From positions 1 through 64,000 of the forward strand of contig JAFZHB010000016.1 of NCBI GenBank assembly GCA_017555105.1: 64,000 bases of DNA, in the 5' to 3' direction. This DNA comes from Alistipes sp. (GTDB lineage: Bacteria > Bacteroidota > Bacteroidia > Bacteroidales > Rikenellaceae). Positions within the stretch are counted from its first letter, which is position 1, and each line of letters starts with the position of its first letter. The translations under genes and the position numbers were made by a program. Of the stretch, positions 20,329 to 30,592 are shown in pieces. The notes under the pieces are model-generated. The model ran no database searches. It worked only from the letters and a program-made list of their open reading frames with translations, and had not been told where the DNA came from.

Positions 20329-21420
20329 CTACTCTGCCTTGGCCTTCGTCTCGCAGTAAGCGCAGCGCAAAGTGCCATCCTCCGAGTAGCGGAAGATCGG
20401 ATCGACATCCTCCGTAGCCGAGATGCAACGCTGATTGTGGCAGGTATAGTTGCCCGTGATGTACTCCTCCGAGAAGACGGGGGTCTGCTCGAAAGGTTTG
20501 TTCTCGTCAGCCCACTCCAGGAGCTTATAGATCAAAGCCATACGGACAAACTTACCATTCTCGACCTGGCGGAAATAGACCGCACGCGGGTCGTTGTCCA
20601 CCGCACGCGTGATCTCGTTCACACGCGGAAGCGGGTGGAGAATGATCATATCCTTGCGCGCCGCCTCCAACTTCTCGGGATCGAGCACAAAGCTATCCTT
20701 CACGCGATCGAACTCCTCCTCGTCGAGGAAGCGCTCCTTCTGCACACGCGTCATGTAGAGGATGTCGAGTTTCTCCATCACCTCCTCCATCGTACGCACC
20801 TCCTCGAACTTCAGGTTCGAGTTCGCACGCATCTCCTTGAGCATATAGCTCGGCAGACGCAACTCCTCGGGCGAGATGAGGTAGATCGTGATGCCATCGT
20901 AACGCGACAGCGCCTTGATGAGCGAGTGTACCGTGCGACCGAACTTCAAATCGCCGCAGAAACCGATCGTCAGGTTGTCCAAACGACCCTTCTCGCGCTT
21001 GATCGTCAGCAGGTCGGTAAGCGTCTGCGTCGGGTGGGCATGGCTGCCGTCACCGGCATTGATCACCGGAATACCGGCGTACTGCGAAGCTACGAGCGGA
21101 GCGCCCTCCTTCTGGTGGCGCATGGCGATAATATCGGCAAAACAGCGAATCACGCGCACCGTGTCGGCTACCGTCTCGCCCTTCGACACAGACGAGGAGC
21201 TGGCATCCGAGAAGCCGATCACCTGACCACCCAACTCCAACATCGCAGCCGTGAAGCTCAGGCGCGTGCGGGTCGACGGCTCATAGAAGAGCGTCGCCAG
21301 CTTCTTGCCCTTGCAGGCTTCGCGATAGTTCTCGCGGTTGGCGATGATATCCTCGGCCAACGATACAATCTCGTGAATCTCCTGCACCGAAAGATCGGTC
21401 GGATCAATTAAATGTCTCAT
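20329..21420 (-). CDS. pyrB: Aspartate carbamoyltransferase with fused PyrI-type zinc domain
   Basis: Forms carbamoyl-aspartate from carbamoyl phosphate and aspartate. 363 residues are read from the ATG at 21420 (MRHLIDP); a longer frame upstream is only low-complexity spacer. Residues 1 to about 306 are a normal catalytic chain: [12 protein letters not shown] (carbamoyl phosphate site), [12 protein letters not shown] and [10 protein letters not shown] tail of about 57 residues follows, holding CX4C (Cys327, Cys332) and CX2C (Cys353, Cys356) with [12 protein letters not shown] between. This lines up with the zinc-binding domain of the regulatory chain PyrI (CPNSNCIS ... CKYC in E. coli). The PyrI nucleotide-binding domain is missing, and no pyrI is nearby. 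It is the last gene of the operon. Confidence 0.93.
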
Positions 21421-21544: not shown

Positions 21545-22177
21545 CTACTTGTTCATCCAGCTCTCATCCGAGGGGTTGTTGCGGAAGCGGATCAGGCGAT
21601 CCTTATCCTCCACCTTGATGTAGCCCTCCTCGGCTGCCACCTCAACCAGCGCGTCGAGGTTCGAGAGCGAGTAGTTGATCACATTGGCCTCGGCCATGCG
21701 ATCCAGACCCTTCTTCATACCATAGGTGAAGATCGAAGCCACGCCGAGTACCTCTGCACCCGCCTCGCGGAGCGCGTTCACCACCTCGATGCACGAACCA
21801 CCCGTCGAGATCAGGTCCTCGATAACAACGACCTTCTGGCCCTTCTCCAGCTTACCCTCGATCTGGTTACCGCGGCCGTGGTCCTTCTGACCCGAGCGTA
21901 CATAACCCATCGGCATATCGAGGATCGTTGCCGTGATAGCAGCGTGCGCGATACCGGCCGTCGAGGTACCCATCAGCACCTCCGCCTCGGGGAACTTCGT
22001 GCGGACAATCTCTGCCAGACCGGCCTCGACATGCTTGCGCACCTCAACGGCCGTCAGCGTCAGACGGTTGTCACAATAGATCGGGCTCTTGATACCGCTG
22101 GCCCAGGTAAACGGCTCGTCAGGACGCAGAAAAACTGCACCAATCGACAAAAGATCCTTTGCAATAAGCTTCTCCAT
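21545..22177 (-). CDS. pyrE: Orotate phosphoribosyltransferase
   Basis: Transfers phosphoribosyl from PRPP to orotate to give OMP. It has 210 residues. The PRPP loop [13 protein letters not shown] lies around residue 115, and the N-terminal substrate region reads [16 protein letters not shown]. The [17 protein letters not shown] segment is the mobile catalytic loop. It is separated by 30 bp from the glutaredoxin-like gene and by 124 bp from pyrB. Confidence 0.96.
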
Positions 22178-22207: not shown

Positions 22208-22468
22208 CTATTTCAATGCTTTGCGCAGCACCTCTACCACCTCGTCGGGATAGATTCCACCCTCGTGCACCTTCTCTCCGTCGATGTAGAAGGTAGGCAC
22301 ATAGTAGTAATCGTATTGGGCGGCACGCTCAGCCTCCTCCGACTCCTCGATGAGTTCGATCTCAATCTCGCGAAGTTCGGGATGTTGCTGCTTGGCCTCC
22401 TCGATATAGGTCAATGCCCGCTGGCAGAAGGGGCACTGCTTCAGGTAAAAGAGTTCTACGCGTTTCAT
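22208..22468 (-). CDS. Glutaredoxin-like small thiol protein in the pyr operon
   Basis: 86 residues with a thioredoxin fold: a CPFC active site at residues 12-15 (FYLKQCPFCQRAL) and the cis-proline YVPTF at 57-60, followed by a glutaredoxin-like YIDGEKVHEGG segment. Both cysteines are present, so disulfide reduction is possible. It lies 13 bp after pyrF and 30 bp before pyrE, all on one strand, so it should be expressed with UMP synthesis. No known step needs a glutaredoxin. It might protect the dihydroorotate dehydrogenase Fe-S/flavin complex or regulate a cysteine enzyme; this is inference. Confidence 0.8.
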   Translation of the reverse strand: MKRVELFYLKQCPFCQRALTYIEEAKQQHPELREIEIELIEESEEAERAAQYDYYYVPTFYIDGEKVHEGGIYPDEVVEVLRKALK

Positions 22469-22481
22469 ATCGTTTTTGGCC

Positions 22482-23192
22482 CTACTCGCCCAAAAACTCT
22501 GCCACGCAACGGCGGTAAGCGGCTACGGGATCGGCAGCTGCCGTAATGGGGCGACCCACCACGATGAAGTCCGAACCGATCTCACGAGCGCGTGCCGGCG
22601 TCGTTACACGCACCTGGTCACCTACCTCACCGTCGGCAAAGCGTACACCCGGGGTGATCGTCAGGAACTCCTTACCGCAAGCCTCCTTCACCATACCAGC
22701 CTCCAGCGGCGAGCAAACCACACCGTCGAGACCCGCAGCGCGCGTGTTCTCGGCGTACTTCACGATCGTGTCGTTGATCGAAGCACCGATCAAGAGCTCC
22801 TGCTGCATACGCTCCTCGCTCGTCGAGGTGAGCTGCGTCACGGCAATCAGCAGCGGACAGCTACCATCCTCACGCGTCAAACCCTCCTTGGCTGCCTTCA
22901 TCATATCGATCGTACCCGCAGCGTGTACATTGGTCATATCCACATCGAGGTTCGACAACACCGACATTGCCTTCTTCACCGTGTTCGGAATATCGTGCAA
23001 TTTCAGGTCAAGGAAGATGCGGTGACCGCGGCGCTTGATCTCACGCACGATCGAGGGGCCCTCTGCGTAGTAGAGCTCCATACCGATCTTCAAAAAGGGT
23101 TTGCGCTCCTCATCCTTGAACAGATCGAGGAAACGGAAGGTATCCTCCGCCGACTTAAAGTCGCAAGCAATAATTACATCACTCTTAATCAT
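22482..23192 (-). CDS. pyrF: Orotidine 5'-phosphate decarboxylase
   Basis: Final step to UMP. It has 236 residues and a short-type TIM barrel. The catalytic Lys-Asp pair lies in [13 protein letters not shown] around residue 62, with VIIACDFKS at the first strand, FLKIGMELY on the second, and the phosphate-binding [17 protein letters not shown] and FIVVGRPIT regions near the end. It is placed between pyrD (18 bp) and the glutaredoxin-like gene (13 bp). Confidence 0.95.
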
Positions 23193-23210: not shown

Positions 23211-24122
23211 TTACTTAACAATACCAATAATATCCTGCAGGCGCTCAATGCCGAGGCGCTCCATCTCCACAGGCAACCCCTCGACAATCTTCTTCGAGGC
23301 ATAGGGATCGCGCAGGTTGGCAGCACCCACCTCCACGGCCGTAGCGCCAGCCATCATCATCTCGATCACATCCGAGGCCGTCTCCACGCCACCGCAACCA
23401 ATCACGGGGATCGAGCAAGCCTTGGCTACCTGGTAGACCATACGCACCGCTAACGGGAAGATCGCTGCACCCGAGAAACCACCCATCGTATTGGCGATCA
23501 CGGGCTTGCGACGCATCGTATCGATGCGCATACCGAGCAGCGTATTGATCAGGCAGAGTCCATCGGCACCCGCCACTTCACACGCCTTGGCGATCGAGAC
23601 AATATCGGTCACATTGGGCGAGAGCTTGATGTAGACGGGCTTCGTCGTCACGGCCTTCACGGCACGCGTCACCTCGGCAGCCGCCTCGGGCGAAGTACCA
23701 AACGACATACCGCCGTGGCGTACATTCGGACACGAGACATTCACCTCGATAATGCCCACCTGCTCCTCCTTGTCGATGCGCTCGCAGCAGTAGGCATACT
23801 CCTCGAGCGAGAAGCCCGAGATATTGGCAATCACGGGTTTGTGGAAATACTCCTTCATGCGCGGCAACTCCTTGGCGATCACCTCGTCGATGCCCGGGTT
23901 CTGCAAACCCACCGCGTTGATCATACCCGCCGTGCACTCCGCGATGCGGGGCGTCGGGTTACCGAAGCGCGGCTCCTTGGTCGTTCCCTTGAAGGAGAAG
24001 GTACCCAAGATATTGATGTCGTAGAAATCCTTGAACTCGTTGCCGAAGCCAAAGGTTCCACTTGCGGGAATAACCGGATTATCCAGTTGCCAACCGCTTA
24101 ATACTACCGATGTATCTACCAT
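23211..24122 (-). CDS. pyrD: Dihydroorotate dehydrogenase, class 1B catalytic subunit
   Basis: Oxidises dihydroorotate to orotate with FMN and passes electrons to PyrK. It has 303 residues. The class 1 active-site Cys is in IIEVNVSCPNVRHGG around residue 132; FMN contacts include NPVIPASGTFGFG at the N-terminus and PVIGCGGVETASD around 235. It overlaps the end of pyrK by 7 bp, as expected for subunits of one complex. Being class 1B, it should be soluble and NAD-linked rather than quinone-linked. Confidence 0.95.
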   Translation of the reverse strand: MVDTSVVLSGWQLDNPVIPASGTFGFGNEFKDFYDINILGTFSFKGTTKEPRFGNPTPRIAECTAGMINAVGLQNPGIDEVIAKELPRMKEYFHKPVIANISGFSLEEYAYCCERIDKEEQVGIIEVNVSCPNVRHGGMSFGTSPEAAAEVTRAVKAVTTKPVYIKLSPNVTDIVSIAKACEVAGADGLCLINTLLGMRIDTMRRKPVIANTMGGFSGAAIFPLAVRMVYQVAKACSIPVIGCGGVETASDVIEMMMAGATAVEVGAANLRDPYASKKIVEGLPVEMERLGIERLQDIIGIVK

Positions 24123-24856
24123 ATTACCTCCTCTTTTAACAGAACGGGACCCTCCTTACAGATGCGTTTGTTACCATACTTCGTCTTGCACGAGCAACCC
24201 ATGCAGGCACCAAAGCCACATCCCATACGCTCCTCGAACGAGAGCTGACCCGAGCACTCCGTAGCGTCGTACAACGCCTTGAGCATCGGCAGCGGACCGC
24301 ACGAGAAGAAGTAGTCGAACGCCAAATCACCCTCAGCCAACGCCGTGGTCACAAAGCCCTTAACGCCCTGCGAACCATCGACCGTCGTGACCACTACGCG
24401 GCAGCCCAGCGCTGCAAACTCCTCGGCATAGAAGACCTCCGCAGCGGTGTTGAAGCCCAGAACAACCGAGACCTCACGACCTTCGGCAAGCAGTTTCTTG
24501 GCCAGGTTATAAAGCGGCGGTACGCCGACACCTCCGCCCACCAGCAGGTTCTTCGGTGCGGCTTTCGAGGTATCGAAGCCATTGCCCAGACCGGTCAAGA
24601 GATCGAGCTCTTCGCCCACCTGCATCTTACTCATCTGGCGTGTGCCCTCGCCCACTACCTTATATATAATGGTCAGCGTTCGTTCGTCGTAGTCCGACAC
24701 CGAGATCGGACGGCGCAGGTACTTCCCCTCCAAGGCGATGTTGACAAACTGCCCCGGACGGGTGATCCACTGCGTATCGCCCTCCAAGACCATCCGCCAA
24801 ACCTGATCGGTCAGCGGACGGTTCTCGAGGATCGTATAGATGGCGTTCTTATACAT
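24116..24856 (-). CDS. pyrK: Dihydroorotate dehydrogenase electron transfer subunit
   Basis: Moves electrons from PyrD to NAD through FAD and a [2Fe-2S] cluster. It has 246 residues: an FAD domain (KYLRRPISVSDYD around residue 52), an NAD-binding domain (NLLVGGGVGVPPLY around 105) and a C-terminal cysteine cluster CGFGACMGCSCKT followed by a fourth Cys in ICKEGPV. The overlap with pyrD suggests translational coupling. It starts 12 bp after carB ends. Confidence 0.94.
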   Translation of the reverse strand: MYKNAIYTILENRPLTDQVWRMVLEGDTQWITRPGQFVNIALEGKYLRRPISVSDYDERTLTIIYKVVGEGTRQMSKMQVGEELDLLTGLGNGFDTSKAAPKNLLVGGGVGVPPLYNLAKKLLAEGREVSVVLGFNTAAEVFYAEEFAALGCRVVVTTVDGSQGVKGFVTTALAEGDLAFDYFFSCGPLPMLKALYDATECSGQLSFEERMGCGFGACMGCSCKTKYGNKRICKEGPVLLKEEVIW

Positions 24857-24868
24857 GATTCAGTTGTT

Positions 24869-27800
24869 TTATTTGGCGTCGATGGTCGAAACACGCAGCG
24901 TGATCTCCTCCAATACATCGAGCAGTACACGCACCGTCTCCAGCGCCGTGAAGACCGTCACATTGTTCTCGACAGCCGTGCGACGAATCTCGTAGCCGTC
25001 CAGACGCGTGTTGTGCTGGTTGATGTCGATCGTGTTGATCACATAGCTTACATGACCCTGACGCAGTGCATCGATGATCTCCGATGAGCCCTCGCTCAAC
25101 TTCGAGAGCGTACGCGTACGCACACCGTGTGCGCGCAGGTAGTCGGCCGTACCGGCTGTAGCCTCGATGTTGAAGCCCAGGTCGTAGAAACGCTGGATGA
25201 GCGGCAGAGCCTTCGGTTTGTCGTCGTCGGCAATCGAGACGAAGATCGTACCGTAGTTCGACACATTCATACCCGTAGCCTGCAACGCCTTATAGAGGGC
25301 ACGCGTGAGCTTATCGTCGTAACCAATCGCCTCACCCGTCGACTTCATCTCGGGCGAGAGGTAGGAATCCATACCGCGGATCTTGGCGAACGAGAATGCC
25401 GGAGCCTTCACATACCAACGCTCCTTCTCCTTGCCGTAAACCGACTCAATGCCCTGCTCGCGGAGCGAGTGACCCAGGATCACCTGCGTAGCGATGTGCG
25501 CCATGGGCACACCCGTAGCCTTCGAGAGGAAGGGAACGGTACGCGACGAGCGCGGGTTCACCTCGATGACATAGACCTCACCCACCTCATCGACAATGAA
25601 CTGGATATTGTAGAGGCCGACGATACCGATGCGCAGACCGAGCTTCACCGTGTAGTCGATGATCTTGCGACGCACCTCCTCCGACACACTGAAGGTCGGA
25701 TAGACACTGATCGAGTCACCCGAGTGGATACCCGTGCGCTCGATGTGCTCCATGATACCCGGGATGAAGACATCCTTACCATCGCAGATGGCGTCTACCT
25801 CCAACTCCTTACCCATGATATAGCGGTCTACCAGCACCGGCGAATCGACATTCACCTCAACGGCCGTGTGCAGGTAGTGGCGCAGACGCTCCTCGTTCGA
25901 TACGATCTGCATGGCGCGACCACCCAAGACATAGCTCGGACGCACCAGCACCGGATAGCCGATGCGAGCCGCAGCACGCACACCGGCCTCGATGTCGGTC
26001 ACGGCCTCAGCCTCGGGCTGCGGGATCTGCAGCTCCTCCATGATGCGCTCGAAGCAACCACGGTCCTCAGCGTTGCGGATCGCCTCGCAATCCGTACCGA
26101 TGATCGGCACATTGAGCTCGGCCAGCGGCTCGGCCAGGTTGATGGCCGTCTGACCACCCAGCGATACGACGATCGCCTTCGGGTTCTCCAGGTGCAGGAC
26201 ATTCATCACATCCTCCACCGTCAGCGGCTCGAAGTAGAGCTTGTCGCTGGTCGTATAGTCGGTCGAAACCGTCTCGGGGTTGTTGTTGATGATGATCGCC
26301 TCGTAGCCGGCCTCTCGAATCGACCAGATGGCGTGTACAGTCGAATAGTCAAACTCAACACCCTGACCAATACGGATCGGGCCCGAGCCGAGTACAACGA
26401 TCTTCTCCTTATCGCTCACCACCGACTCATTCTCCTCCTCGTACGACGAGTAGAAGTAAGGTACATAAGCAGCATACTCGCCGCCGCAGGTGTCGATCAT
26501 CTTATAAACCGGGAAGATGTTGTGCTGCTTGCGCAGGTGGAACATCTCATGCTCGGTCATGCCCCAAAGCTGACCGATAAACTTATCGCCGAAGCCCATG
26601 CGCTTCGCATCGCGCAGCACCTCGACATCGCCCTTATTAGCACGCACCACCGACTCAAACTCGACGATGTTCTTGAACTTCTCGAGGAAGAACATATCGA
26701 TCTTCGTCTTGTTGTAGATCATCACCAGGTCGACGCCGTTGCGAATCAGTTGAGCAATGGCGTAGAGACGATCGTCCGTACCCTCGGTGATGTAATCGAG
26801 CAGTTCGTCGTTCGACCACTCGTCGAACTTCTTGTGGTAGATGTGGCATACACCCGTCTCGAGCGAACGCACAGCCTTCAAGAGCGACTCCTCCATCGTG
26901 CGACCGATGGCCATCACCTCACCCGTAGCCTTCATCTGCGTACCGAGCTTGTTCAAAGCGTCGGAGAACTTATCGAACGGGAAGCGAGCCACCTTCGTCA
27001 CCACATAGTCGATCGTCGGCTCGAACGAAGCGGGCGTCGTAGCGATGCGGATCTCATCGAGCGTCAGACCTACGGCAATCTTGGCACTCACGCGGGCAAT
27101 CGGGAAGCCAGAAGCCTTCGATGCCAAAGCCGAGGAGCGCGACACACGCGGATTCACCTCGATGAGGTAGTACTGGAACGAGAGCGGGTCGAGTGCGAAC
27201 TGCACATTGCAACCACCCTCGATCTTCAGCTCACGAATAATCTTCAGGGCCGAGTTGCGCAGCATCTGGAACTCGCGGTTCGTCAGCGTCTGTGCCGGAG
27301 CAACCACCATCGAGTCACCGGTGTGAACACCCACCGGGTCGATGTTCTCCATCGAGCAGATGGCAATGGCCGTATCGCGGGCATCGCGCATCACCTCGAA
27401 CTCGATCTCCTTATAACCCTTGATGCTCTTCTCGATGAGCACCTGGTGTACGGGCGAGAGGGCCAGAGCATTGCGCATCATCTCGCGCAGCTCCTCCTCG
27501 TTGTCCACGAAGCCACCACCCGTACCACCGAGCGTAAAGGCGGGACGCAACACCACCGGATAACCGATCTCGGCTGCGATCTTAGCACCCTCGTCGATCG
27601 TGGTAGCCACCTCCGACGGCAGCACCGGCTCACCGAGTTGCTCGCAGAGATCCTTGAAGAGCTCGCGGTCCTCAGCACGCTCGATCGAAGCGAAGCTCGT
27701 ACCGAGAATCTCCACCTGGCACTCCTCGAGGATACCCTTCTTGGCCAACTGCACGGCCAGGTTCAGACCCGTCTGACCACCCAGACCCGGCACGATGGCA

Positions 27801-28051
27801 TCGGGACGCTCGTAGCGAATGATCTTCGCCACATACTCGAGCGTCAGCGGCTCCATATAGACCTTATCGGCAATGTTCGTATCGGTCATAATCGTTGCAG
27901 GGTTCGAGTTCACAAGGATCACCTCGTAACCCTCCTCGCGCAGCGCCAGACAGGCCTGCGTACCTGCATAGTCGAACTCGGCAGCCTGACCAATCACGAT
28001 CGGGCCCGAGCCGATGACCATCACTTTCTTGATATCTTCTCTCTTAGGCAT
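24869..28051 (-). CDS. carB: Carbamoyl phosphate synthase large subunit
   Basis: Makes carbamoyl phosphate from bicarbonate, ammonia and two ATP. It has 1060 residues, full length: two homologous ATP-grasp halves ([21 protein letters not shown] at the start of the first, [19 protein letters not shown] at the start of the second; each shown in part) and a C-terminal MGS-like regulatory domain. Loops GGTGGGFV and [14 protein letters not shown] are intact, so the synthetase half appears active. It overlaps carA by 8 bp. Its partner CarA seems unable to supply ammonia from glutamine. Confidence 0.96.
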
Positions 28052-29123
28052 CTCTTCCCTCCTCCATTAATTTGACAAACTTCTTATACAGATTGTGGCA
28101 CTCGCCCTCGGCTGCCGCGGGATCGAACTGCACAGCCACCATGCGGTCGATGGCGCACTGCAGACCCTCGATCGTCTGGTCGATCACATTCAGATGCGTG
28201 ATCTCCAACGAACCCGGCAGGTTGTTCTTCACCACATAGCCGTGGTTCTGCGGAGCGATCTCGATGAGACCCGTCTTGAGGTTCTCCACCGGATTGTTAC
28301 CACCGCGGTGACCTACCTTCATCTTCTCCACCTGGGCGCCATAAGCCAATGCTACGAGCTCCATACCCAGGCCGATACCCAAGATAGGCTTGCGGCCGCG
28401 CAGCTGCTTCACGAGCTCGATCACCGGCTGCACATCCTCCGGATTACCCGGACCGTTCGGGATCACCACGCCATCGGGACGGAACGAGAGTACCTCCTCG
28501 AGCGTAGCGTTATAGGGCAAGACCGTCACATTGCAACCCATCTTATTGAGCTGGCGCACCACCGTATTCTTAATACCACAGTCAACCACCACCACATCGT
28601 AGGTATGGTTAGCCACGCGCGACATCCAGCGCTTCTTGCAGCTCACACGCGCCACAGCGTTCTTCGGCTCCTCGTAGGCCTGCAACTTGGCGAGTGCCTC
28701 CTCGGTCGGGGTAGCAGCATCGGTCAGGATAGCCAGTTGCGTACCCTCGTCGCGGATCACGCGGGTCAGAGCACGCGTATCGAGCCCCTCAATGGCCGGG
28801 ATAGCACACTCCTCCAACACCTCGTTCAGCGTACGCGTGTAGCGGAAGTTCGAAGGTTGATCGTTGTACTCACGCACAATCATTGCCCCGAGCATCGGGG
28901 TCTTCGTTTCATAATCCTCGTCGGCCATGCCGTAGTTACCGATCAGCGGGTAGGTCATCACCACCAGCTGATTCGTGTAGGCGGGATCGGACATGATCTC
29001 CTGATACCCCACCACCGAGGTGTTGAAAACAATTTCGCCAATGACCTCACGGTCGGCACCAAAGCCGTAGCCGTAGAATTCGCGACCATTCGCCAAGACA
29101 AGTTTCTTCGTAAATGCTTTCAT
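28044..29123 (-). CDS. carA: Carbamoyl phosphate synthase small subunit, glutaminase triad lost
   Basis: The normal job is to hydrolyse glutamine and feed ammonia to CarB. 359 residues align along the whole family: N-terminal CPSase domain ([30 protein letters not shown]) and a class I GATase domain ([31 protein letters not shown]). The catalytic Cys motif GICLGHQ reads GIGLGME here (Gly251, codon 28371-28373). The His-Glu pair of the usual YHPEA reads FDPAA (Asp334, Ala336; 28122-28124 onward). The gene is otherwise intact and under normal codon use, so it is not a decaying pseudogene. It probably serves as a structural partner for an ammonia-using synthase. It is 5 bp after pyrC. Confidence 0.94.
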
Positions 29124-29128
29124 CGTAT

Positions 29129-30409
29129 CTATTTGGTATTCGTATTCATTGTTTCATCTGCATAGACGCACTCACCACCCACGACCGTCATCACGGCACG
29201 ACCGCGCACCTGCCAGCCTGCAAAGGGGGTCGCCTTACCCATCGAGAGGAACTCGTCGGGGTTGATCGTGTAGGTGGTGGCCAGGTCAAGCACCGTAAAG
29301 TCGGCCGGAGCGCCCTCCTCGAGCGTACCGCCCAGGCCAAAGAGACGACCCGGCGCCGTAGCCATGCGGTCGATCAGCTGCTCGAGCGTGAGCAGACCCT
29401 TCTCGACCAGATGGGTGTAGAGCACACCAAAGGCGCACTCCAAGCCTACAATGCCCATCGCGCTCTTCTCCAGACCGCGGCTCTTCTCCTCGGCCGAGTG
29501 GGGAGCGTGGTCGGTAGCGATCACCTCGATCGTACCATCCTGCACACCGCGCACCAACGCATCGCGATCCTCTGCCGAGCGGATCGGCGGATTCATCTTC
29601 CAGCGACCCTCCTCCTCGAGCTGCTCATCGCAGAGCACCAGGTAGTGAGGACCTGTCTCGCAGCTCACACGCAGGCCCTTGGCCTTGGCCGCACGCACCA
29701 GTTCGACACTCTCCTTGGTCGAGACATGGCAGACATGGTACTGGCAACCGATCTGCTCTACGAGTTCGATATCGCGCTTCACCTGCGCCCACTCGCTCTC
29801 TGACGAGATGCCGCGGTGGCCATGCGTACGGCAGTACTCGCCGTCGTGGATGTAGCCGCCCTTGAGCAGCTCGTTCACCTCGCAGTGTGCCACAATCGGC
29901 TTGCCGAGGCGGGCTGCCTCCTGCATCGCTGCGGCCATATCCTCATCACACTGCACGCCGCGTCCATCGTCCGAGAAACCGACCACATGGGGAGCCATCG
30001 CAGCCAGATCAGCCTGCTCGCCACCGCCCATCTGACCTTTGGTGATGCAGCCGTAGGGAACAACGCGCACACGAGCGTCGCGCTCGATGAGTCGGAGCTG
30101 CTCGCCCAGCGTCGATTCGCTATCGGGTGCCGGCTTCAGATTCGGCATCGAGCAGACGGTCGTGTAACCGCCGCGTGCTGCCGCAGCCGTACCCGTGGCG
30201 ATGGTCTCCTTGTAGCCGAAGCCCGGCTCACGCAGGTGGACATGCACATCGATCAGACCGGGAACCAGCACACGACCTTCGAGGTCGATGACGCAATCAC
30301 CCGCAGCAGGCGCCTCGTAGGGAACGATGCGACCCTGCTCGACCACGAGCGTTCCCTCCTCGAAACGACCGTTGCGATAGATGTGGGTATTGGTGTAATA
30401 ATGCTTCAT
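29129..30409 (-). CDS. pyrC: Dihydroorotase, class I
   Basis: Cyclises carbamoyl-aspartate to dihydroorotate with a metal centre. 426 residues are read from the ATG at 30409. The frame stays open upstream, but that stretch is the transcript leader with a terminator and promoter, so the nearer ATG is chosen. The metal motif DVHVHLREPGFGYKE lies around residue 60, with C-terminal metal ligands in VIATDHAPHS around 305. It is the first gene of the pyr operon and sits 10 nt after the U run of an intrinsic terminator. Confidence 0.95.
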   Translation of the reverse strand: MKHYYTNTHIYRNGRFEEGTLVVEQGRIVPYEAPAAGDCVIDLEGRVLVPGLIDVHVHLREPGFGYKETIATGTAAAARGGYTTVCSMPNLKPAPDSESTLGEQLRLIERDARVRVVPYGCITKGQMGGGEQADLAAMAPHVVGFSDDGRGVQCDEDMAAAMQEAARLGKPIVAHCEVNELLKGGYIHDGEYCRTHGHRGISSESEWAQVKRDIELVEQIGCQYHVCHVSTKESVELVRAAKAKGLRVSCETGPHYLVLCDEQLEEEGRWKMNPPIRSAEDRDALVRGVQDGTIEVIATDHAPHSAEEKSRGLEKSAMGIVGLECAFGVLYTHLVEKGLLTLEQLIDRMATAPGRLFGLGGTLEEGAPADFTVLDLATTYTINPDEFLSMGKATPFAGWQVRGRAVMTVVGGECVYADETMNTNTK

Positions 30410-30419
30410 ATTGGTGCAC

Positions 30420-30448
30420 AAAAAAGGGTAACCGAAAACAGTTACCCT
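30420..30448 (-). terminator. Attenuator terminator in the pyr leader
   Basis: On the transcript, AGGGTAAC pairs perfectly with GTTACCCT (8 bp, 8-nt loop; 30441-30448 with 30425-30432) and is followed by six U (30420-30425 region). It lies between the promoter and pyrC, so it can only act on this operon. Confidence 0.85.
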
Positions 30449-30534
30449 AATAAAAACAATATCCCAGTCGATTGACCCGAACAGAAGACCTGCGATTGCT
30501 GCTGGCGCTGTGATATGGTGCGGTTTTTCGACAT
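30442..30534 (-). CDS. Leader peptide of the pyr operon (30 residues)
   Basis: A short frame starting ATG TCG AAA AAC at 30534, about 20 nt below the expected transcript start, and ending with TAA at 30442-30444 inside the 5' arm of the terminator. The peptide starts MSKNRTISQRQQQSQ and ends TGILFLLG. The last codons before the hairpin are U-rich (ATA TTG TTT TTA TTA). A ribosome translating to the stop would cover the hairpin arm and prevent termination, as in the E. coli pyrBI leader. It has no similarity to any protein that I recognise; its role would be cis-acting. Confidence 0.6.
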   Translation of the reverse strand: MSKNRTISQRQQQSQVFCSGQSTGILFLLG

Positions 30535-30560
30535 GGTTATACTTTATTACAATATTGGGA

Positions 30561-30592
30561 CAAAGGTAGCATTTTTTCGCGCTGCATACAAA
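30561..30592 (-). promoter_or_regulatory. Promoter of the pyr operon
   Basis: TTTG (30589-30592), 20 nt, TACCTTTG (30561-30568) on the minus strand: an exact consensus. The start should be near 30554, giving a leader of about 145 nt before pyrC. Confidence 0.8.

Follow-up and report, generated by a model that had tools for sequence, protein, structure and literature searches.

A leader frame, a U-rich tract and a terminator ahead of the UMP operon of Alistipes, a probable attenuator of the pyrBI type

The UMP operon and its leader

The window is the whole stretch of 64,000 nucleotides of Alistipes sp. that was analysed. It carries eight pyr genes for the UMP pathway in one direction, with pyrC first, followed by purE and purL (Table 1). 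The gaps are at most 18 nt down to pyrF; then come 304 nt with a small ORF before pyrE, and 121 nt before pyrB. Judged from the gene order, the operon is probably co-transcribed as far as pyrB. The C-terminal tail of pyrB (20329-20460) is of the PyrI metal-binding type (PF02748) and is fused to the catalytic chain.

Table 1. Leader features and operon genes, in positions of the window
Feature	Position	Strand	Basis or remark
-33 TTTG element of leader promoter	30592-30589	minus	sequence
-7 box TACCTTTG	30568-30561	minus	20 nt spacer after TTTG; sequence
Leader ORF, 30 codons, MSKNRTISQRQQQSQVFCSGQSTGILFLLG + UAA	30534-30442	minus	ATG at 30534, UAA 30444-30442
U-rich tract, 11/20 U, adjoining hairpin	30468-30449	minus	proposed UTP-dependent pause region
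Terminator hairpin AGGGUAACUG-UUUU-CGGUUACCCU	30448-30425	minus	covariation over 33 loci
Six-U run, expected termination site	30425-30420	minus	first U can pair in stem; sequence
pyrC, dihydroorotase, first gene behind attenuator	29129-30409	minus	NCBIfam TIGR00857, over cut-off
carA, carbamoyl-phosphate synthase small subunit	28044-29123	minus	TIGR01368
carB, carbamoyl-phosphate synthase large subunit	24869-28051	minus	TIGR01369
pyrK-like, dihydroorotate dehydrogenase electron transfer subunit	24116-24856	minus	NF000799 best, below cut-off
pyrD, dihydroorotate dehydrogenase	23211-24122	minus	NF005574
pyrF, OMP decarboxylase	22482-23192	minus	NF001273
Small ORF, CPFC, glutaredoxin/thioredoxin-like by eye, between pyrF and pyrE	22208-22468	minus	sequence
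pyrE, orotate phosphoribosyltransferase	21545-22177	minus	TIGR00336
pyrB, aspartate carbamoyltransferase	20329-21420	minus	TIGR00670

A TTTG at -33 is a promoter element of the Bacteroidetes type. An earlier note on this DNA had placed an exact promoter at 30561-30592, and its coordinates and details proved right. Transcription would start about 6-8 nt downstream of the -7 box, near 30554. TAnnTTTG is the sigma-A consensus of Flavobacterium, as quoted in PMC9723704. No second TAnnTTTG box with TTTG at the usual spacing was found on the minus strand from 30700 to 20300, down to the end of pyrB, and a promoter box is also present ahead of most of the leaders compared below.

The ATG of the leader frame is located 26 nt past the -7 box. 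Its UAA falls within the 5' arm of the hairpin, the codons AUA UUG UUU UUA UUA stand directly before the hairpin GGG, and the hairpin has 8 Watson-Crick pairs (10 pairs in all, including one U.G). The earlier note had reported the 30-codon frame with this stop, the U-rich codons and a hairpin of 8 bp followed by six U, all of which was confirmed. The leader peptide contains QRQQQSQ. The six-U run ends 10 nt upstream of the pyrC ATG at 30409.

Within the window alone, a terminator scan found 14 sites in 14 kb where shuffles had 9.3, and the folding z of the leader was -1.8, with 10 of 200 shuffles equally good. A single locus on its own would prove little; it is the comparison with relatives that lifts the observation above chance.

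Leaders of related genomes

Searched with the pyrC protein, 146 of the 151 genomes in the genus draw and 242 of the 250 in the family draw gave a match, a few of the genus matches being fragments or distant (31% identity in G018, G133 and G150; a weak match only in G097). We compared 72 pyrC leaders, 67 of the genus (window included) and 5 of a sister genus. The set consisted of the window, the top-scoring returned loci and 40 loci chosen by hand going down the ranking, before their leaders had been inspected. Its genus share covers 65 of the 146 genus-draw genomes with a match, together with two more from the family draw. L002, a copy of L006, and L003, an unrelated locus from Oscillospiraceae, were dropped. 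As a hold-out we used 20 further loci from the 146 genus matches, of which 18 were evaluable; L224 lay at a contig end, and L232 (G002) has no hairpin ahead of pyrC.

The layout was defined as an ATG at most 75 nt from the promoter box, opening a frame that ends -12 to +20 nt from the hairpin base. With the range of -12 to +20 nt set after a first look at the leaders, and the hairpin of L039 restricted by hand, 68 of 72 loci showed the layout; 200 rounds of shuffling gave 9.9 on average and 19 at most. The hold-out, for which the range was left unchanged, gave 16 of 18 against a mean of 2.4 and a maximum of 6. As only base composition is preserved in the shuffles, and the loci are related to one another, p values serve as guides. 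The earlier note had made its reading depend on conservation of the frame, which is kept in both sets.

Frame lengths among the 68 loci were 20-49 codons, and the stop was mostly found -9 to +17 nt from the hairpin base. In the four other loci, the same frame opens from GTG (L011), is present if another promoter box is taken (L037), opens from GTG and reads through the hairpin (L062, +36), or, as the first frame, ends at +48 (L066). The two remaining hold-out loci were L243, with a GTG frame through the hairpin (+33), and L234 (G127), which has a different arrangement ahead of pyrC.

Frame 0 was open in 68/68 leaders by construction, the +1 frame in 4/68 and the +2 frame in 21/68. Over 45 pairs of equal length, with the last 8 codons excluded, pN/pS of the leader frames was 0.38, against 1.12 and 1.16 in the shifted frames; over 14 disjoint pairs it was 0.47. 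By this measure the leader frames as a set are under purifying selection, the signature of translation. A chance open frame is ruled out by the shuffles, the other frames and pN/pS.

The peptides differ strongly in length and sequence between clades, and their ends interchange between clades (IVLLG, TVFN, TVFYC, NTVYCF). Relative to the hairpin, the stops are spread over all three phases (21, 16 and 31 of 68), so that it is the position where the ribosome ends that is kept.

Near codon 7, ACATA was present in 30 of 68 leaders (shuffle mean 4.6, maximum 12), and 27 of 31 occurrences were in one phase. It may simply be a kept codon. Codon 7 is often ATA, commonly after AAC, CAC or ACC; codons 6-8 of the window are at 30519-30511. 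ATA at codon 7 was also seen in L012, L040, L046, L059, L068 and L243. In L059 (G079, a genome of 1.3 Mb) it occurs despite the missing U tract; this leader has a hairpin and a 20-codon frame and is perhaps a decaying version.

The hairpins show 40 different 5' arms in the 72 loci, stem-length differences counted. For covariation we used 33 of the 72 loci, chosen by ourselves with hairpins picked for being hairpins, and in this alignment 95.1% of the cells were paired. Nine of the ten pairs were changed on both sides, and the covariation score was reached by 0 of 500 shuffles; the number of further pair types was reached in 36 of 500. The earlier note had proposed comparing related leaders for peptide length, U run and hairpin. 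Frame, U tract and hairpin turned out to be kept as a layout, with the sequences of peptide and hairpin changing from clade to clade.

The distance from the hairpin end to the first open pyrC ATG was 5-68 nt (median 16.5) in 72/72 loci. A separate promoter would have little or no space there, and readthrough of the terminator is therefore the simplest way for pyrC to be expressed. The short distance weighs against the idea that the frame is an ordinary small gene with its own terminator and pyrC is otherwise expressed. A variant of this idea has the frame feed ribosomes to pyrC by reinitiation; such a role for leader frames is proposed in PMC4833913, where Bacteroidetes are among the groups that show a distance peak. 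Neither the covarying terminator nor the U tract is accounted for by reinitiation, and the strong variation of the peptides between clades also stands against both versions, which we regard as very improbable.

In the last 20 nt before the hairpin, U averages 54.3% over the 72 leaders and 23.3% over 40 control terminators. A U fraction of at least 0.5 was found in 59/72 leaders and in 0/40 controls (Mann-Whitney p 2.8e-17, as a guide). The controls were intergenic terminators from the window and from 20 stretches of other genus genomes; they lay outside long ORFs and were taken by a slightly stricter hairpin rule, under which 13 leader hairpins average 0.53 U. In 13 of the 72 leaders, U made up less than 50% of these 20 nt. 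The mean U fraction was 0.53 in clade 1, 0.58 in clade 2 and 0.46 in the five sister-genus leaders. C made up only 9% of the tract. The difference from the controls makes an ordinary terminator unlikely.

U was enriched at each of the three codon positions (0.43-0.56, compared with 0.17-0.25 in codons 2-21), which would be expected under selection on the nucleotide and not on the peptide. The reading frame of the tract varies, as in TTT TTG TTT TAA of L006 and ATT GTT TTA TTA GGG TAA of L012. The 12-nt window with the most U ends, in the median locus, at the hairpin base.

Sensing mechanism and alternatives

Taking the leader comparison and the likeness to E. coli together, we consider it probable that the leader controls the UMP operon as a ribosome-coupled, UTP-sensing transcription attenuator of the E. 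coli pyrBI type. According to PMC10135430, a limiting supply of UTP in E. coli pauses the polymerase on a leader requiring U, and the coupled ribosome prevents formation of the terminator hairpin; PMC5021804 and PMC4824070 also present the pyrBI mechanism. In Alistipes, a short leader would be transcribed from about 30554 and its frame would be translated. When UTP is plentiful, the polymerase would cross the U-rich tract fast, the ribosome would lag, the hairpin at 30448-30425 would fold, and transcription would stop at about 30420. When UTP is scarce, the polymerase would slow in the U-rich tract just ahead of the hairpin. The leader ribosome would then catch up, trailing closely to the stop codon at or in the 5' arm of the hairpin, and with the hairpin blocked the polymerase would continue into pyrC-carAB-pyrK-pyrD-pyrF-pyrE-pyrB. 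Neither a binding protein nor an antiterminator hairpin nor a special amino acid would be required. We infer the UTP response, the pausing and the position of the ribosome in the leader. The pyrBI-type design had been put forward in the earlier note, and it is supported by the kept layout, the coding signature, the covarying hairpin, the U tract, the lack of an antiterminator and the lack of PyrR over its cut-off in 61 genomes.

The layout by itself reports the distance between ribosome and polymerase, and the same leader might sense general translation capacity, or work by polymerase slippage on the U tract, instead of by UTP-dependent pausing. T runs of 5-6, which would suit slippage, are the longest in 27/72 leaders; in the other 45 the longest run is 4 or shorter, which we judge short for slippage. 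The content of the operon points to pyrimidines, and U, not C, is enriched in the tract. We give this explanation very little credence.

Glutamine is the substrate of CarA, and the ribosome might stall at Gln codons, so that an amino-acid attenuator would sense charged tRNA-Gln and not UTP. Gln made up 9.5% of the residues in 70 leaders against 3.3% in nucleotide shuffles and only 1.7-3.6% in five window genes, of which four belong to the pyr operon; the share was 12.3% in clade 1 and 7.5% in clade 2. In the five sister-genus leaders it was 3.4%, and the layout was nevertheless kept. The Gln codons are commonest 45-75 nt before the hairpin, where a stall would free the hairpin and shut the operon, and the U tract is left unexplained. 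A classical amino-acid attenuator needs an antiterminator, but pairing of the 5' arm with the upstream leader was no better than in shuffles (mean z +0.38, 1/72 below -2). No amino acid was shared by the whole set of 70 leaders; Ser was present in a fraction of 0.99, Gln and Phe each in 0.94. As the main mechanism we have rejected amino-acid attenuation for the missing antiterminator and the lack of an amino acid in every leader; because of Gln it is kept as a minor rival, an improbable one.

Both signals could also be read together, in a pyrimidine attenuator of independent Bacteroidota origin. Pausing in the U tract next to the hairpin would report UTP. The Gln codons, most of them 45-75 nt upstream, would report glutamine, which donates the nitrogen for carbamoyl phosphate; a ribosome stalled at that distance would force termination. 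If true, the UMP pathway would open only at low UTP with glutamine at hand. We regard this extension of the UTP-sensing attenuator as rather unlikely.

The PyrR design of Firmicutes also has a terminator before pyr genes, and PyrR or another pyrimidine-sensing RNA-binding protein could in principle mediate attenuation here. PyrR (NF003549) was over the cut-off in 0/61 genomes, including the window's own, which is 86% complete; weak matches to parts of the model were found in 47/61. In a control of 14 named genomes, 12 gave a signal and 6 were over the cut-off. A search of the window leader gave no Rfam match at gathering level or at E<=5, and there was none at gathering level in 7 related loci; a known RNA family was rejected on this ground, and a PyrR attenuator because PyrR was not found over the cut-off in the 61 genomes. 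These results bear out the earlier note, in which no PyrR-binding consensus had been seen. The leader shows no pairing that competes with the terminator, and a frame ending at the hairpin is unnecessary for a protein-mediated system. The chance that such a protein is at work is in our estimate very small.

A UTP-sensing attenuator of the pyrBI type would offer an answer to how the UMP pathway is controlled in these bacteria, in which PyrR was not found. It would be an equivalent of the textbook nucleotide-sensing attenuator in a distant phylum, one abundant in the human gut, and would imply close ribosome-polymerase coupling early in the transcript in Bacteroidota. The dozens of natural versions, in which peptide and hairpin are replaced and the layout is kept, would form a series for measuring the requirements of the mechanism.

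Distribution and known systems

The design was found in the genus and in 5/5 loci read in one sister genus whose pyrC is close. Under the rule used, 20 regions upstream of pyrB, taken from 16 further genera of the family, showed no terminator. At the order level, 74 genomes had pyrB over the cut-off and 70 upstream regions were read, those of the window's own genome, G267, G313 and G316 being left out.

Among these 70 loci, 15 from other families (L112, L113, L118, L120, L130, L132, L134, L135, L136, L162, L170, L175, L176, L185 and L186) carry, by our reading, a full gene with a shared C-terminal motif, and the gene ends -17 to -3 nt from the base of a terminator that precedes pyrB; in L130 and L170 the assigned pyrB start is doubtful. 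The gene of L134, the one member scanned, gave only a sub-threshold CobW match in Pfam and no NCBIfam match. A cyclic 2,3-diphosphoglycerate synthetase-like protein is a tentative reading of it. The arrangement of gene, terminator and pyrB is a possible counterpart of rph-pyrE of E. coli.

The literature searched gave no report of a pyrimidine attenuator in Bacteroidetes, in agreement with the earlier note, which knew of no described case; the main reviews (Turnbough and Switzer 2008, Turnbough 2019) lay outside the search, and an earlier mention is possible. PMC4833913 and PMC6245113 add nothing about such an attenuator, and the survey of premature terminators in PMC2965389 is without the term Bacteroid in its main text. 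PMC9723704 reports clues that amino-acid operons of Flavobacterium are controlled by leader-peptide attenuation, and PMC7366714 notes that 5' UTRs of B. thetaiotaomicron contain short frames resembling leader peptides.

With the leader-peptide attenuators of amino-acid operons the Alistipes leaders share a short frame and a terminator, but they have no antiterminator pairing and no universal amino acid. They differ from PyrR attenuation of Firmicutes in the lack of PyrR over the cut-off in the 61 genomes and in having a frame with a coding signature.

The rph-pyrE region of E. coli is an attenuator, with the end of the intact rph frame near the hairpin. In its sequence a U-rich stretch touches the terminator hairpin ahead of the pyr gene, as in Alistipes. 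The rph frame is a full gene, whereas Alistipes has a dedicated leader of 20-49 codons; the truncated rph annotated in MG1655 ends about 34 nt before the hairpin.

The likeness to pyrBI and its leader pyrL consists of a short leader frame, a U-rich leader and an intrinsic terminator just before the pyr genes, with a ribosome expected to block the hairpin (PMC10135430 and PMC5021804). The geometry is not identical. The pyrL frame stops 47 nt past the hairpin base, whereas the Alistipes frames mostly stop between -9 and +17, although L062 and L243 read through from GTG. In pyrL the 12-nt window with the most U stops 14 nt short of the hairpin, whereas the Alistipes tract abuts it, and the U fraction in the 20 nt before the hairpin is 0.25 in pyrL and 0.35 in rph-pyrE. 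Eight pyr genes lie behind the Alistipes leader, against pyrB and pyrI in E. coli. The two systems belong to different phyla and their peptides look unrelated by eye; the Alistipes attenuator is apparently of independent origin from pyrL.
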